From Hydrogenophaga flava NBRC 102514 (lineage in GTDB: Bacteria; Pseudomonadota; Gammaproteobacteria; Burkholderiales; Burkholderiaceae_C), in assembly GCF_001571145.1 (NCBI RefSeq), contig NZ_BCTF01000001.1:1-64000 (forward strand): DNA of 64,000 nt, in the 5' to 3' direction. Both the position numbers and the translations under genes were made by a program. Shown here one piece after another: positions 5,273-61,894 of the stretch; the stretch's first letter is position 1; every line of letters starts with the position of its first letter. The notes beneath the pieces were generated by a model. It searched no databases. It worked only from the letters and a program-made list of their open reading frames with translations, and was not told the origin of the DNA.

Positions 5273-5794
5273 TCAGACCAGCTGGGCCCACTGCGTCAGT
5301 TCTTCGGCGCTGACTTTGCCCAGCTTGCGGTGCAGCACGGACCCGTCCACGCCAAACACCACACTGAAGGGCAAGGCCCCGCTGGGATTGCCCAGGCTTC
5401 GCGCCATGTCGGAGCCGGCAAAGCCGGCCAGCGCCACGGGAAAGTCCAGTGGCAGCCGCGTCAGAAACCGCGACACCGGCGCCGCCTGGTCCACCGCCAG
5501 TCCCAGCACCTGCCAGCCCTGGGCCGAGTGCTCCTTGTAAAAGGTGTTGATGAGCGGCAGCTCCTCGACACAGGGCGGGCACCAGGTGGCCCAGAAATTC
5601 ACGAGCAATGGACGCCCCCTGAAGCCCGCCATGGACACCGGAGCGCCCGCCACATGAGGGAACGCGCTTGCCCAGAACTGGTTTTCAGCCTCACCAAGCA
5701 CCGGCCCCGGGCGCAGCCGCCACCAGGCCACCCCCGCACCGGCCGCCGCAGCCGCCGCGCCCAGCCCCGCCATCAGCAAGGTCCGGCGGTTCAT
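5273..5794 (-). CDS. TlpA-like thioredoxin-family protein
   Basis: This 173-residue protein has an N-terminal hydrophobic signal or anchor beginning MNRRTLLMAGLG; the RR followed by LL suggests Tat or Sec export. A thioredoxin fold follows with the redox motif WCPPC in NFWATWCPPCVEELP. TlpA/ResA-type proteins reduce periplasmic disulfides, for example in cytochrome c maturation. Its start overlaps the stop of the upstream gene by 4 bases (ATGA), so the two are translationally coupled. The specific partner is unknown. Confidence 0.88.
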   Translation of the reverse strand: MNRRTLLMAGLGAAAAAAGAGVAWWRLRPGPVLGEAENQFWASAFPHVAGAPVSMAGFRGRPLLVNFWATWCPPCVEELPLINTFYKEHSAQGWQVLGLAVDQAAPVSRFLTRLPLDFPVALAGFAGSDMARSLGNPSGALPFSVVFGVDGSVLHRKLGKVSAEELTQWAQLV

Positions 5795-56549: not shown

Positions 56550-56555
56550 GTGCGC

Positions 56556-58256
56556 ATGGTCCGCCCCACCCAACTGCTCCACCCCCAGCGCGCGCCCGCC
56601 CCGGTGCGCCCCGCTGCCACCGTGCTGCTGCTGCGCGATTCGCCACAGGGCATCGAGGTGCTGATGACGCGCCGCTCGATGACGGCGAGCTTCGCGCCCG
56701 GCGCCTACGTCTTCCCCGGCGGCGCCATCGACGCCGCCGACGCGCTGGCGCACGGCCAGTCGACGCGCCGCGCCACCCAAAGCGACGTCCATCTGACGCA
56801 GGCCATCGCCGCCATCCGGGAGAGCTTTGAAGAGCTGGGCATCCTGCTGGCGCGTCGCGCCGACGGCTCGCATCTGGACACGGTCCAGATCGCGTCGCTC
56901 GACCGCAAGGCCCCGTTCGCCGAGTTGTGTGCCGCGCAAGGCCTGACGCTCTCGGGCGCCGAGGTCTTCGTGCTCGCCCACTGGGTCACCGACCGCGACC
57001 TGCCGCGCCGCTTCGACGTGCCCTTCCTCGTGGCGCGCATGCCCGAGGGACAGGAACCGGTGGCGGACGAATCGGAACAGTTCGAACCGCTGTGGGTACG
57101 ACCGGCCGACGCGCTGGCGCGCCACGCCGCCGGCCAGTTCTTCATCATCTTCCCGACCATCCGCACGCTGGAGCGGCTGCAGGCCTATGCCTCGGTGCAG
57201 GCGGTGCTGGATGCCTGTGCGGTGAACGACGAGCCGCTCTTCACCAGCTGCCCGCGCGCCGGCTTCATGAACGGCCACGAGTCGCGCCACATGGAACACG
57301 AGCCGCCCTTCGGCGAGCTGGCGATGGTCTGCCCGGACGGCCAGATCGTGCACGAACTGGCCTGGCAGACCGAACGCCCGGTGCCGCTGCTCAAGAACGT
57401 GCAACGGCTCACCGCGCCCAACCCGGGCTTCATGACCGGACCGGGCACCAACAGCTACATCGTCGGCGACCCGTCCACCGGCCACGTTGTGATCGATCCG
57501 GGCCCGGACGAACCGGCGCACATCGAACGCCTGTGGCGCGCGGCGGGCGGCGACATCCGTGCCATCGTCTGCACCCACTCGCACGCCGACCACTCCCCTG
57601 GCGCGCCAAGGCTGCAGGCGCTGTGCACCAACGCCGGCCGGGCCAGGCCGCCCATCCTCGGCCTGCCCAGCGCGCCCACGTCCCGGGAGAACAGCCGCTT
57701 CACCCCCGATCGCGCCCTGGCCGACGGCGAACGGCTGGTGCTGAGCGCCTCCGATGGCGCGGCGCACACCCTGCAGGTGGTGCACACCCCCGGCCATGCG
57801 GCCAACCACCTGTGCCTGCTGCTGGAAGAAGACGGCCTGCTGTTCAGCGGCGACCACATCCTCAACGGCAGCACCACCGTGATCGACCCGCCCGACGGCA
57901 ACATGGGCAACTACCTCGATTCGCTGGACAAGCTCGACCAGCTGTGCGGGCAGCACGGCGTGCACTTCATCCTGCCCGCGCACGGGTATGTGCTGGGCGA
58001 CCACCCGCGCAGCGGTGACAACCCCGCATCGCCCGAGCACGGCGGCGCCCGCGCCGCCATCGCCCACCTCAAGGCGCACCGGCTGGCGCGCGAAGCCAAG
58101 GTGGCCCGCGCCATGCAGGCCATTCCCGACGGCACGATGGACGACTGGGTGAAGATCGCTTACGACGACGTGCCCGAACGCCTGTGGCCGGTGGCCAAGC
58201 GCTCCATGCTCGCGCATGTCGAGCACATCCAGAGCCTGGGCGGGTTCAACGCATAG
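56556..58256 (+). CDS. Nudix hydrolase fused to metallo-beta-lactamase-fold hydrolase
   Basis: The 566-residue protein has two enzymes. Residues about 15-215 are Nudix: APGAYVFPGGAIDAAD, then after an expanded loop the catalytic AIRESFEELGIL. Residues about 280-560 are a beta-lactamase-fold metal hydrolase: THSHADHSPGA, HTPGHAANHL, LLFSGDHIL and PAHGY, close to LACTB2-type RNases and thioesterases. The fusion suggests sequential action on one substrate, perhaps an acyl-CoA or nucleotide conjugate, but this is inference. Confidence 0.88.
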   Translation: MVRPTQLLHPQRAPAPVRPAATVLLLRDSPQGIEVLMTRRSMTASFAPGAYVFPGGAIDAADALAHGQSTRRATQSDVHLTQAIAAIRESFEELGILLARRADGSHLDTVQIASLDRKAPFAELCAAQGLTLSGAEVFVLAHWVTDRDLPRRFDVPFLVARMPEGQEPVADESEQFEPLWVRPADALARHAAGQFFIIFPTIRTLERLQAYASVQAVLDACAVNDEPLFTSCPRAGFMNGHESRHMEHEPPFGELAMVCPDGQIVHELAWQTERPVPLLKNVQRLTAPNPGFMTGPGTNSYIVGDPSTGHVVIDPGPDEPAHIERLWRAAGGDIRAIVCTHSHADHSPGAPRLQALCTNAGRARPPILGLPSAPTSRENSRFTPDRALADGERLVLSASDGAAHTLQVVHTPGHAANHLCLLLEEDGLLFSGDHILNGSTTVIDPPDGNMGNYLDSLDKLDQLCGQHGVHFILPAHGYVLGDHPRSGDNPASPEHGGARAAIAHLKAHRLAREAKVARAMQAIPDGTMDDWVKIAYDDVPERLWPVAKRSMLAHVEHIQSLGGFNA

Positions 58257-58281: not shown

Positions 58282-59085
58282 ATGCGCATCGCTTTCGTCT
58301 CCGACATCCACGGCAACCTCGCCGCGCTCGACGCGGTCATCGACGACATAGCCCGGCGCCAGGTCGACGAAGTCGTGAACCTGGGCGACACGCTCAGCGG
58401 TCCGCTGTTGCCGCTGGAGACAGCCCGGCGCCTGCACCCCCTGCCCTGGCTGCACGTGGCAGGCAACCATGAACGGCAGGTGCTGCGCCTGCCGCTGGCG
58501 CGCCAGAACGCCTCTGACGCCTACACCACCGGCCGGCTGGCCGAGGCCGACAAGTCCTGGCTGGCCGGTCATGCCGACCCGTGCGACCCGCGCCTGCACA
58601 GCGGGCAGGTCTGGCCCGAACGGCTGGGCCCGGAGGTGGCCCTGTGCCACGGCAGCCCACGCAGCGACATCGAATACCTGCTGGAAACCCCGGTGGGCGA
58701 AGAGGCCCGGCTGGCCACGCCCGACGAAATCGAGGATCGCCTCGGCAGCCGGATTCCGCCGCACATCACGCTGCTGGCCTGTGGACATTCCCATGTGCCC
58801 CGGTCGGTGCGGCTGGGCAGCGGCCTGCTGATCGTCAACCCCGGCAGCGTGGGCCTGCCGGCGTACGACGACGACCACCCGTATCCGCAGTCGAGCTACC
58901 ACCGGATTGAAACCGGGAGCCCGGATGCGCGCTACGCCATCGCCGAGAAGCGCGATGGCCAGTGGTGCTGCGAGCTGGTCAGCGTGCCCTATGACCACGA
59001 GTCGGCGGCGCAGCAGGCCGACCTGCGGCAGCGCCCGGACTGGTCGCATGCCTTGCGCACGGGCTGGATGCCGAAACCAGCCTGA
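58282..59085 (+). CDS. Metallophosphoesterase (calcineurin-like)
   Basis: The 267 residues carry all family metal motifs in order: SDIHGN (8-13), GDTLSG, GNHE, CHGSP and GHSHVP. Such enzymes cleave phosphodiesters or phosphomonoesters, for example 2',3'-cyclic nucleotides. It follows the Nudix-MBL gene by 25 bases and may share its transcript. The RNA-repair genes downstream have their own promoter, so a shared role is only a possibility. Confidence 0.88.
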   Translation: MRIAFVSDIHGNLAALDAVIDDIARRQVDEVVNLGDTLSGPLLPLETARRLHPLPWLHVAGNHERQVLRLPLARQNASDAYTTGRLAEADKSWLAGHADPCDPRLHSGQVWPERLGPEVALCHGSPRSDIEYLLETPVGEEARLATPDEIEDRLGSRIPPHITLLACGHSHVPRSVRLGSGLLIVNPGSVGLPAYDDDHPYPQSSYHRIETGSPDARYAIAEKRDGQWCCELVSVPYDHESAAQQADLRQRPDWSHALRTGWMPKPA

Positions 59086-59110
59086 GCGTTTCCCCGCAAC
59101 AACACAGCGA

Positions 59111-59140
59111 TTGACGCCGCTCGGTCGGTGTCACTATCAT
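59111..59140 (+). promoter_or_regulatory. Sigma-70-like promoter of the RNA-repair cassette
   Basis: TTGACG (59111-59116), 18 bases, TATCAT (59135-59140). This is the best-matching promoter in the window and predicts a transcript start near 59147, giving a leader of about 274 bases before the ligase ATG. Confidence 0.65.
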
Positions 59141-59146
59141 CGCGCC

Positions 59147-59420
59147 CTCTTTTCTCCACCCATTTCCACGGACAGACTCCCATGTGCTGCGTTGCCGCTC
59201 TCTGAAGCCGACACCTTGTTGGCGCCTTCAGTGCCCCTGATGGACCGCCTGCGATGAATGCCATGATTCACCGCACACCAACCAGCCACTGAAGCCGCCG
59301 ACAGCAGCCCGCCCGTCCCGGTGATCCGCTTCCTGCAAGCCGTCGCCTCCCGCCCGTCCCTCGCATTGAGGGATGCCGCGCGTTCGAGACGATGTTCGCT
59401 GACGATGTCAGGAGATCACC
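59147..59420 (+). other. Structured 5' leader of the RNA ligase gene
   Basis: Together with the promoter this is a 335-base stretch without a large gene. Three hairpins follow each other: 59203-59230 (7-bp stem GCCGACA/TGTTGGC plus outer pairs), 59251-59274 (TGAAT/ATTCA plus GCG/CGC) and 59357-59373 (TCCCTC/GAGGGA). Two tiny frames occur: 7 codons from 59182, with two Cys codons, and 12 codons from 59254. The length and folding suggest post-transcriptional control or a small RNA. Confidence 0.45.
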
Positions 59421-60323
59421 ATGTCCCCCTCCCCCATCGACCCGATTCATCGGGTCTCGCTTCCTCTGGTGCGCTACCCGAGGACCGTCCATCTGGAAGG
59501 CTCCCGCCTGCATGGCGACGACGACCCCCAGGTGGTCAAACTGCATTCCCTTGAACACCAGCATGTGGTGATCGAGGAGAAACTCGATGGCGCCAACTGC
59601 GCCGTGTCATTCACCGAATCTGGCGAGCTGCTGCTGCAATCCCGCGGGCACTACCTGGTCGGCGGCGGACGTGAGCGCCAGTTTGCACCGTTGCATCCGT
59701 GGGCGCGTGCCCATGAAGCCGCGTTGCTGGAGCGCTTGGAAGACCGCTTCGTGATGTACGGCGAGTGGACGTATGCCAAACACTCTGTGTTCTATGACCG
59801 GCTGCCGCACTTTTTTCATGAGTTCGACATCTGGGATCGACAGTCGCAGTGTTTCCTGAGCACACCGCTGCGACATGCACTGCTGGAGGGCTTGCCAGTG
59901 CTGTCTGTGCCGGTCTTGTATGAGGGCCCGATGCCGAGCCGGCTTAAAGACCTCACGAATCTGGTCGGACCATCACTGGCCAAGTCGGACGTTTGGGCCC
60001 AGGTCCTGCAAAACGAAGCCGAGAAGCGAAGGCTGGATTGGGCCACGACCTGGAAGCAGACCGATCACTCGGCCATGGCCGAGGGCCTGTACGTGAAAGT
60101 GGAAACACCTGAGCAGGTGATCGCACGCGTCAAGTGGGTCCGCCCCGACTTTACCCAGACGATTCTGGATTCGGGCTCTCACCACACCGAGCGCCCGATC
60201 ATCCCCAACAGGCTGGACGATGGCGTGGATCTTTTCAGTCCGCAACTGACACGGAGCTGGCCGGATCTCGGACTGGTGACCAAGCGGGGCTTCGCCAATG
60301 CCAACACAGGGAGCAAACGATGA
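59421..60323 (+). CDS. ATP-dependent RNA ligase (T4 Rnl2-like)
   Basis: The 300 residues contain the nucleotidyltransferase motifs of RNA ligases: motif I EEKLDGAN with lysine 54 as the AMP-accepting residue, motif III YGEW (113-116), IIIa HEFDIWDR (133-140), IV AEGLYVKVE (220-228) and V ARVKWVR (235-241). It should seal 3'-OH/5'-phosphate RNA ends. AGGAG lies 6 bases before ATG 59421. It overlaps the end-healing gene by 4 bases (ATGA). Codon bias and GC look lower than in the neighbours, suggesting transfer. The natural RNA target is unknown. Confidence 0.9.
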   Translation: MSPSPIDPIHRVSLPLVRYPRTVHLEGSRLHGDDDPQVVKLHSLEHQHVVIEEKLDGANCAVSFTESGELLLQSRGHYLVGGGRERQFAPLHPWARAHEAALLERLEDRFVMYGEWTYAKHSVFYDRLPHFFHEFDIWDRQSQCFLSTPLRHALLEGLPVLSVPVLYEGPMPSRLKDLTNLVGPSLAKSDVWAQVLQNEAEKRRLDWATTWKQTDHSAMAEGLYVKVETPEQVIARVKWVRPDFTQTILDSGSHHTERPIIPNRLDDGVDLFSPQLTRSWPDLGLVTKRGFANANTGSKR

Positions 60324-61477
60324 ACAAACTCACAAAGAACGACTTGCATCTGCCCTGGGCAGAACTGATCCCGAGCAACGCCACGGCGCTGGACTGGCAG
60401 CAATGGTGTGCGGCGGTGCCGGACCTGTGCCGGCTCGACCACACCGTACAAGACCCGATCCACCACGCCGAGGGCGATGTCGGCACACACACCCGCATGG
60501 TCCTGGCGGCTTTGCTCGACGATCCGTTCTACACGGCGGCTGCGCCTGAAAGACAGTGGGTGATGTTCCTGGCCGCATTGCTGCACGACATTGCCAAGCC
60601 GGACACCACGGTCATCGATACCGACTCGGGGCGTGTCAGCCAGCCCGGTCACTCCCGGCGCGGTGCAGTGGACGCGCGACTGCTGTTGTGGCGCGCGGGC
60701 GCTCCCATCGAATTGCGCGAGGCCGTTTGCCGCGTCATTGCGGTGCACCAGGTGCCCTTCTTCGCGTTCGACTCCCGCCGAGGCGAGAGTGCTGAGTTCC
60801 TTGTGCGCAAGCTGTCCTGGGAACTGGATCTCCGGGAACTGGTGGCGGTCGCGCGCGCCGACATGACCGGCCGGGTGTGTACGGACCAGGCGGGGCATCT
60901 GGCGGACATCGAGCTCTTCGCAGAACTGGCGCGAGAGGAAGGGGCCTGGGGCCAGCCGCGTCCGTTTCAAAGCCAGCACACCGCGGTGGCGTACTTCCGC
61001 GGCGCATCGGTGCATCCCGATTCGGCACTGCACCGTCGCCCCGGCTCCAAGGTCACGCTGCTCAGCGGTCCACCCGCCGCAGGAAAGAACACCTGGGTTC
61101 GCCAACACCGCCCAAACTGGCCCGTGGTGTCGTTCGACGATGCCCGGGAAGAGCTGGGACTGCGGTACGGCAAGAACGAAGGCAAAGTAGCCCACCTGGC
61201 GCTTGACAAGGCCAGAGCGTTGCTGCGCGACCGGACGTCGTTTGTCTGGAACGCCACGCACCTGTCTCAACGCGTGAGAGAAAAGACCCTGGGCCTGCTG
61301 TTCGCCTACGACGCGGAGGTGGACATCGTGCACCTGGAGCAGACACCCGGAGAACTCCTGCGCAGGAACAAGGCCCGGGACACCAGCCTGAGCAACACGA
61401 AGCTGATGCAGATGCTGAACCACTGGGAAGCCCCTCTGCCGACCGAGGCACACAGTGTGCGCTTCGAGGTTGGTTAA
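60320..61477 (+). CDS. HD-Pnk: HD-domain phosphoesterase fused to polynucleotide 5'-kinase
   Basis: The 385-residue protein has an N-terminal HD domain with metal ligands H57, H89-D90 (LLHDIAKPDT), H111, H143 and D181, then a C-terminal kinase with P-loop GPPAAGKNT (250-258), acceptor-site VSFDDAREELG and lid arginines RRNKARD. In the characterised HD-Pnk family the HD domain removes 2',3'-cyclic or 2'-phosphates and the kinase phosphorylates 5'-OH ends, preparing breaks for ligation. With the coupled ligase this forms a complete end-healing and sealing pair. Confidence 0.9.
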   Translation: MNKLTKNDLHLPWAELIPSNATALDWQQWCAAVPDLCRLDHTVQDPIHHAEGDVGTHTRMVLAALLDDPFYTAAAPERQWVMFLAALLHDIAKPDTTVIDTDSGRVSQPGHSRRGAVDARLLLWRAGAPIELREAVCRVIAVHQVPFFAFDSRRGESAEFLVRKLSWELDLRELVAVARADMTGRVCTDQAGHLADIELFAELAREEGAWGQPRPFQSQHTAVAYFRGASVHPDSALHRRPGSKVTLLSGPPAAGKNTWVRQHRPNWPVVSFDDAREELGLRYGKNEGKVAHLALDKARALLRDRTSFVWNATHLSQRVREKTLGLLFAYDAEVDIVHLEQTPGELLRRNKARDTSLSNTKLMQMLNHWEAPLPTEAHSVRFEVG

Positions 61478-61517
61478 GGGGGTTATGGGCTTTTGCGCCC
61501 ATGCAGAAATAAAGTGT

Positions 61518-61894
61518 GAAGCGCGCCGATAAGCCGGATTCTGTGCACCCGGGTTGCCCCGGGTGTGACCGCCATTCCTCTGGGCCGGGGGTCACCCACC
61601 CGGCTCGATGCTACCTACCCGCCAGCTCCGCGGAACCACGTCAACGCTAGCCTATTTGGTATTGCTGCGCGTAGAGATTGCCCGTTTCACCCCGGCTGGT
61701 CTGCCTTGCGGCACTCCCACCGGACTCGTCTCTGTTGCTCTGATCCTCACCTTAGGGCCCTTCGGGTTGCCCCGTCAGGCTGGTCGGTGGAGAGGTGTTA
61801 CCTCCTACGCTGTCCTGTGCAGTCCGGACGTTCCTCCAGTGCCCCCTTTCGGGTCCTCTTGCGAGGTTGCACCAGCGGCGGTCTGGCGCGCTTC
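61518..61894 (-). ncRNA. rnpB: RNase P RNA (bacterial type A)
   Basis: The minus strand carries the RNase P consensus: GAAGCGCGCC at the 5' end pairing with GGCGCGCTTC at the 3' end, the conserved GGAGGAACGTCCGGAC, AGAGCAACAGAGA in the core and ACAGAATCCGGCTTAT near the 3' end. About 377 bases, normal for type A. It matures tRNA 5' ends. It is convergent with the HD-Pnk gene, 40 bases apart, with no clear terminator between. Confidence 0.96.

Follow-up and report, generated by a model that had tools for sequence, protein, structure and literature searches.

A mobile RNA ligase and HD-Pnk gene pair in Hydrogenophaga flava whose leader may act as a translational attenuator

Our results suggest that two adjacent genes of Hydrogenophaga flava, found in a 64,000-nucleotide stretch of its genome (hereafter the window), form a mobile two-enzyme cassette for healing and sealing RNA, and that this cassette is, on balance, probably controlled by translational attenuation. 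By computation we found the two genes and their linkage, their insertion between housekeeping genes, a conserved small upstream ORF (uORF) in their leader, and stretches of that leader whose complementarities compete with one another (Table 1). The two enzymes are of a known kind and unexceptional within it. In the leader, by contrast, we see a good candidate for a regulatory element that is new: the open-licence PMC papers searched gave no report of an RNA repair operon under leader-peptide control.

Table 1. Features of the cassette and its surroundings (positions in the window)
Feature	Position	Strand	Basis or remark
Inserted block, leader plus both genes	59073..61504	.	2432 bp; blastn against four congeners
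Promoter-like site TTGACG-N18-TATCAT	59111..59140	+	Consensus scan; hexamers equally spaced in L002 and L063
Candidate leader-peptide ORF, segment 1 (MCCVAAL, then stop)	59182..59205	+	Position; conserved length in relatives
Segment 2, GAAGCCGACACC	59204..59215	+	Candidate anti-sequestor at the uORF stop; duplex with segment 3
Hairpin TGAAT-GCCATG-ATTCA	59255..59270	+	Loop conserved, stem changed in relatives
Segment 3, GGTGATCCGCTTCCTGCA	59320..59337	+	Predicted to sequester the ligase start site; pairs with 59409-59420, 7-bp core P 0.95-1.0
Segment 4, CAGGAGATCACC	59409..59420	+	Shine-Dalgarno region of the ligase gene
RNA ligase gene	59421..60323	+	300 aa; PF09414, conserved residues, fold match to RNA ligases
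HD-Pnk gene	60320..61477	+	385 aa; HD phosphoesterase plus polynucleotide kinase; AAA_33, HD, profiles, residues, fold
rnpB, RNase P RNA	61514..61894	-	RF00010, 174.5 bits; flanking gene outside the system, convergent with the pair

Results

The pair encodes a predicted RNA ligase and a predicted HD-Pnk

Both ORFs called by the first-pass annotation, and the ATGA overlap between them, were recovered, and the pair was lower in GC than its neighbours, as had been noticed before (ligase 60.8% and HD-Pnk 64.9%, against 67.3% for the 64-kb window). By family, the product of the first gene is an RNA ligase, for which a sealing activity is predicted: it matched PF09414 (RNA_ligase) of Pfam with 126 bits and carries the KxDG lysine and the nucleotidyltransferase motifs. 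Residues K54, D56, G57, E115, E221, G222 and K238 were unchanged in 28/28 aligned proteins, and we take K54, D56, G57, E115, E221 and K238 to be the residues of the nucleotidyltransferase motifs. A profile made from 28 relatives matched the Naegleria RNA ligase 5cot (E 8e-4), and in a structure search with the AlphaFold model of the ligase (22 rows, mean pLDDT 85.9) RNA ligases ranked first, with a TM of 0.44 on the query. By profile and fold, the closest solved relative is the Rnl5-like RNA ligase of Naegleria gruberi, with an alignment restricted to the nucleotidyltransferase part.

The second gene encodes, by its domains, an HD-Pnk, for which 3' phosphoesterase and 5' kinase activities are predicted. 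Pfam, profiles and the structural model all placed an N-terminal HD domain and a C-terminal P-loop polynucleotide kinase in this single chain. With Pfam, AAA_33 scored 54.5 bits and HD 20.6 bits, slightly below the 22-bit cut-off; the HD assignment is backed by the profile match of residues 75-202 to the HD-bearing part of the poly(A)/CCA polymerase 3wfo (E 2e-7) and by the invariant H49, H57, H89, D90 and D181. Together with K256, D273 and R353, these residues were unchanged in 28/28 aligned proteins, and they presumably serve as HD metal ligands and in the kinase active site. Key residues of both enzymes are conserved, and their motifs had first been annotated as intact. The profile of 28 relatives also matched the Clostridium thermocellum Pnkp kinase 4gp7 (E 1e-11) and T4 Pnk 1ly1 (E 1e-8). 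With the AlphaFold model (22 rows, mean pLDDT 92.6), polynucleotide kinases were among the first structure matches and a tRNA-processing enzyme (3wfp, 3wfo) stood lower in the list; all these matches are partial, with a TM on the query of 0.28-0.34. Note that PDB searches with the single sequences of the ligase and of the HD-Pnk gave no match at E 0.001.

Homology, residue conservation and the predicted folds thus lend good support to the proposal that the pair would supply 3' healing, 5' phosphorylation and sealing. Judging from homology, sealing would be done by the ligase after the ends have been healed, and tRNA repair is a plausible role of the pair. The HD-Pnk of Runella slithyformis has the same domain order as that of the window, HD then kinase, and end-healing activities have reportedly been found for it; the phosphatase of Pnkp is of the calcineurin type, in contrast to the HD of the window enzyme.

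The leader carries a conserved uORF

A leader of ~275 nt precedes the ligase gene and would set the expression of the pair. The pair had been credited with a strong promoter of its own, for which the promoter-like site of Table 1 is a candidate; this site has counterparts in L002 (TTGACC-N18-TAATAT) and L063 (TTGACG-N18-GAGAAT). To compare leaders we used 36 of 45. Those set aside were L020, L023 and L024 (without a ligase match), L064 (truncated contig), L078 and L079 (short paralogues), L085 (a near copy of L084), and L025 and L026, which are real leaders from outside the Burkholderiales in which the start-site motif was not seen. Representatives were picked by similarity filters.

A strict scan (M[SPFHC][RC], a length of 7-9 codons and a Shine-Dalgarno of 4 nt or more) found the uORF in 29/36 leaders and 23/29 representatives of the Burkholderiales relatives. 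The same scan was passed by 1.35% of 4000 random 400-nt stretches from the fetched loci and, when 17 leaders were shuffled 100 times apiece, by 0.4% of the shuffles. The window, because its Shine-Dalgarno is weak, failed the strict scan, as did 6 other leaders of the 36. In total, uORFs were assigned in 33/36 leaders, some by hand (unassigned: L008, L022 and L101), and four of the 33 fail the strict scan (the window, L029, L089 and L093). Most of the assigned uORFs have 8 codons (24), the others 9 (7) or 7 (2). They start with ATG (19), GTG (13) or TTG (1) and stop with TGA (22) or TAA (11). Since starts and stops vary while the length is kept, the comparison argues for translation of the uORF. 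Codon 3 was CGC in 21, TGC in 8, CGT in 1 and another codon in 3, giving Arg or Cys in 30/33; the alternation of CGC and TGC may equally stem from a constraint on the RNA.

A hairpin is predicted to hide the ligase start site

The start-site hairpin formed by segments 3 and 4, which first emerged from an alignment of leaders, is, in our folding models, the best supported feature of the leader. In the window, 59320-59326 is predicted to pair with 59414-59420 (P 0.95-1.0; z -1.98, with 6/200 shuffles folding as well). In 26/36 leaders the segment-3 motif was present 34-101 nt upstream of the start codon, as GTCGTYGG or a variant or, in window-type leaders, as GGTGATC[CG]GCTTC, a form that we picked by eye; 10/36 are without it. 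Across 21 representatives the native arms had a mean of -15.4 kcal/mol versus -11.4 kcal/mol for swapped arms, and 0/20,000 permutations were as low. Folding a 75-nt stretch around the start gave unremarkable results across loci, and in the window, where z was +1.44, the upstream arm falls outside this stretch. In alignment A3 there was one covarying pair (C-G to U-A in 3/6), which is weak, as 28/500 shuffles reach its score.

The covariance models R1 and R2 matched their own training leaders. Beyond training, R2 matched L009 (E 0.0075) and L014, L008 and L011 (E 0.09-0.22), all across the start codon, as well as L030 (E 0.045), in the leader and ending before the start, and R1 matched L084 (E 0.0003). 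At E 1, neither model matched the window, L002 or L063. A regulon built on this hairpin was considered and rejected: in 23 pair-bearing genomes, R1 matches above 56 bits occurred in 4/23, all of them training leaders or their copies at the pair operon, while in G461 the operon's own leader scored 22.4 bits and the best match elsewhere 25.1 bits.

Further upstream, a second hairpin keeps its GCCAUG loop on differing stems; five representatives have it between -160 and -166, and one has it at -83. This loop with at least 4 closing pairs was present in 6/29 representatives, whereas 300 shuffles gave 0.11 on average and never more than 2, and any closed hexaloop reached at most 3 leaders in each of 200 shuffles. 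In the alignment of the window, L002 and L063, two leaders have the stem UGAAU/AUUCA and one has CAGGU/ACCUG. Two further, overlapping hexaloops were seen in 8/29, mostly in the Comamonas-Delftia-Diaphorobacter group.

Other explanations of the leader were discarded. A conserved uORF starting from the GCCATG loop did not hold up, because frames and lengths vary among relatives (by eye), and neither did sigma-54 control of the window leader, whose GG-N10-GC spellings vary (by eye). A known riboswitch or thermometer was set aside after comparison with Rfam, with which the window leader had no match up to E 1 and the leaders of relatives had two weak matches, to unrelated families (E 0.58 and 0.67).

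Segments 2 and 4 compete for segment 3

Segment 2 overlaps the end of the uORF, and its pairing with segment 3 and that of segment 3 with segment 4 are mutually exclusive, the latter hiding the ribosome-binding site. In the window the 2:3 duplex, at -15.6 kcal/mol, was the best among 39 upstream windows. The exact complement of segment 3, CCGACGAC, stands right after the uORF stop in 9/33 leaders; elsewhere there are variants, GAAGCCGACACC in the window and GAAGUCGAUACC in L063. In 10 of 17 representatives, none of the 39 upstream windows was a better partner for segment 3 than segment 2 (ties included); in the other seven, segment 2 ranked 2-18. The swap test for 2:3 gave p 0.007, and it is the weaker one because these segments are alike in most loci.

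We then modelled a ribosome on the uORF by equilibrium folding, which is blind to the order of transcription. Placing the ribosome at codon 3 increased the probability of the 2:3 pairing to 0.33, against 0.06 in the free leader (p 0.003); with the ribosome at the stop codon it was near 0 (p 1.5e-5). Codon averages peaked at 0.33 and 0.37, for codons 3 and 4 in the A site, respectively. When the stretch from the uORF stop to segment 3 was shuffled, the gain in pairing went from 0.35 to 0.009 (p 2e-4). The modelled gain in opening of the ribosome-binding site was small and not significant (0.062 vs 0.009 shuffled, p 0.11). Opening of the site with the ribosome at codon 3 exceeded that at the stop by 0.05 on average (p 0.03), and there was no difference between the free and stop states (p 0.78). 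In the window, a ribosome at codons 3 and 4 raised the 2:3 pairing to 0.24-0.39, with the opening going from 0.12-0.13 to 0.23-0.30. Nearly no switch was obtained in 6/17 representatives, namely L002 (the closest relative), L003, L004, L005, L015 and L030. Note that the leader tests were devised after the pattern had been seen, and on related sequences.

Erm-type translational attenuators consist of a leader peptide, competing hairpins and an occluded ribosome-binding site, as proposed here, and by analogy with the erm genes the anatomy of our leader is that of a translational attenuator. It differs from these in that it would control RNA repair, not drug resistance, and in its shorter peptide. 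By default, segment 2 would be held by segment 1 and its surroundings, and segment 3 would lie on segment 4, so that translation of the ligase would be low. If a ribosome stalled within the leader peptide's first codons, it would cover segment 1; segment 2 would then take segment 3, and the ligase start would be exposed. A ribosome at the uORF stop codon would instead cover segment 2, and the system would stay off. The repair enzymes would thus be produced when translation falters, for example after cleavage of tRNA or rRNA. More tentatively, the early Arg and Cys codons could test the integrity of tRNAs and ribosomes, stalling releasing the message and repair shutting the system off. The leader would then sense damage independently of RtcR and with no sensor protein devoted to the task; this refinement we hold as possible and with some reserve.

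Part of these observations would also be expected of an ordinary heal-and-seal pair with a hairpin that is static, or is an operator bound by protein (autoregulation by the ligase or the HD-Pnk), or is an RNA thermometer, the uORF being incidental or a matter of tuning. We regard this as rather unlikely, although it has more in its favour than any other alternative. It would account for the hairpin being so prominent in our tests, for a modelled opening upon stalling that does not reach significance, and for the U run that in one clade pairs with the GGAAAG Shine-Dalgarno region, but it leaves unexplained both the conservation of the uORF and the presence of a segment-3 complement at its stop codon.

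The linked pair seems to have arrived as a block with its leader

The ligase gene was immediately 5' of the HD-Pnk gene at 18/18 contig loci found with HD-Pnk. Among 250 genomes of the family, HD-Pnk was matched in 16 and the ligase in 22, each at full length in 13. These are the same 13 genomes for both genes, which are adjacent and on one strand in all of them, and the remaining 3 HD-Pnk and 9 ligase matches are weak or partial. Within the genus, the ligase was matched in 4/67 genomes, 3 of which also have HD-Pnk (3 of the 40 genomes searched for it, one on a truncated contig). Including the own genome, ligase matches numbered 7/399 in the order (E 1e-40) and 2/369 in the class (E 1e-30).

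As first annotated, the pair lies between a housekeeping gene, for a phosphoesterase, and rnpB. The same interval measures 14 bp in G286, 17 bp in G255 and 124 bp in G208, and therefore the pair and its leader seem to have come in as a block and to be mobile and patchy. In the fourth congener, G273, the pair is located elsewhere in the genome and the phosphoesterase-rnpB interval holds a different insertion of ~1.55 kb (L066 1517-3067); the interval may be a recurrent insertion point. As a preferred neighbour of the pair rnpB was rejected, as it lies within 1 kb only in the window and L070, in opposite relative orientation, and not within that distance in the other 13/15 genomes (on a different contig in 6 of those). 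Two genes upstream of the pair, at 56550-58256 of the window, there is a fusion of Nudix and metallo-beta-lactamase domains with a winged-helix tail.

In the leaders L003 (4960-5091), L080, L083 and L084 the uORF stop is followed by CCGACGAC and, farther downstream, by the complementary GTCGTCGG. The two are common to three families of the order and to a copy on a P. aeruginosa plasmid, and so the genes may carry the leader element along when they move. Pseudomonas megaplasmids can have HD-Pnk without a recognisable ligase of the window type: in L023 (4204-6161) an HD-Pnk of 53% identity has a 246-aa hypothetical protein in the ligase's place. On a Bosea plasmid, an array with 9 tRNA-family matches (L025 1-1505) lies ~2.6 kb from the pair, possibly replacement tRNAs next to tRNA repair.

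Here the interpretation of the first-pass annotation is only partly supported: its heal-and-seal reading is well supported, and a defence cassette is not supported. An island pair that reverses the tRNA cuts made by one specific nuclease, itself triggered by phages or rivals, with its own promoter as the switch, would suit the patchy distribution, the insertion in a housekeeping interval, the copies on plasmids, the copy near a tRNA array and another beside rtcR and RtcB. We nevertheless consider it improbable, since the PADLOC defence models gave no match for the pair, no nuclease partner was found, and the survey of neighbourhoods for defence genes that had been suggested revealed no recurrent neighbour: apart from the pair, no ORF family was present in more than 4/28 flanking regions (two of the 28 being those of the window).

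The pair and RtcB

RtcB was present in 21/23 pair-bearing genomes versus 8/30 pair-lacking ones (Fisher p 4e-6, for genomes hand-chosen from earlier lists and uncorrected for kinship). Being commoner where the pair is, RtcB seems to be supplemented by the pair rather than replaced. In the own genome (G000), RtcB is apparently present at two places, C19:76537-77670 and C35:22313-23353; both are on contigs other than that of the window, which thus differs from an RtcR/RtcBA operon. We saw rtcR beside the pair only in L070, the locus to which the RtcR profile search was applied. There (L070 5677-11450, genome G141) the pair stands between rtcR (PF06956, E 2e-80) and rnpB, with RtcB ~5 kb upstream, and G141 has in this way a second RNA repair system at the same place as the pair. 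The locus also has a weak tRNA-like match at 5677-5739 (37.4 bits).

According to PMC7790460, RtcR responds to tRNA fragments, a precedent for damage-induced RNA repair via a different route. Both systems would share the theme of RNA repair genes induced by RNA damage. The rtcBA operon combines RtcB chemistry with a sigma-54 activator bound by tRNA fragments, whereas the window combines a ligase and an HD-Pnk with a proposed leader-peptide switch.

Relation to other healing and sealing systems

As had been noted, HD-Pnk enzymes are already described, and that of the window is homologous to DRB0098 of Deinococcus radiodurans, as the window ligase is to DRB0100 of the same operon. The DRB0098-DRB0099-DRB0100 operon also has an HD-Pnk and a protein of the RNA ligase family (newer Deinococcus locus tags were equated with DRB0098-0100 by gene order and description). 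In strain MP1, the AAA-family protein of the operon has 29.8% identity over residues 33-380 of the window HD-Pnk and the RNA-ligase-family protein 29.3% over residues 17-139 of the window ligase. The Deinococcus operon differs in its third gene (TIGR02452, macro-like), placed between the others in the order ligase, third gene, HD-Pnk, and in a shorter ligase (210 aa, against 300 aa). According to PMC1997131, DRB0098 has kinase activity, its 3'-phosphatase is not settled, and DRB0100 is adenylylated without ligation. The repair of DNA ends originally proposed for that operon is very unlikely to be the role of our pair: the same paper does report that DRB0098 phosphorylated a DNA 5'-OH end and that the operon is radiation-induced, but also that DRB0100 joined neither DNA nor RNA, and the window ligase belongs to the Pfam RNA ligase family and has a fold closest to RNA ligases.

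The Pnkp1-Rnl-Hen1 complex is likewise a bacterial system for the healing and sealing of cleaved RNA, but as described in PMC4411300 it includes the methyltransferase Hen1, and none was seen with the window pair. The jumbo-phage survey PMC7824862 treats RNA ligases together with end-healing enzymes as tRNA repair and places HD-like phosphatases in a few phages, and PMC11071452 concerns a different RNA ligase family.

Discussion

What cell damage, and which signal, evokes the enzymes that heal and seal RNA is largely an open question. Of all that we found, the leader, which was absent from the first-pass annotation, bears most directly on the trigger of the pair. A leader-peptide attenuator would, if true, name the class of this signal, failing translation. 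A reporter built on the attenuator could be used to screen anticodon nucleases, rRNA-cleaving toxins and ribosome-targeting drugs for the trigger. Even if the proposed switch is wrong, the pair still represents, in mobile form and at a good location, an enzyme family about which little is understood, and its conserved leader is predicted to hide the start site.
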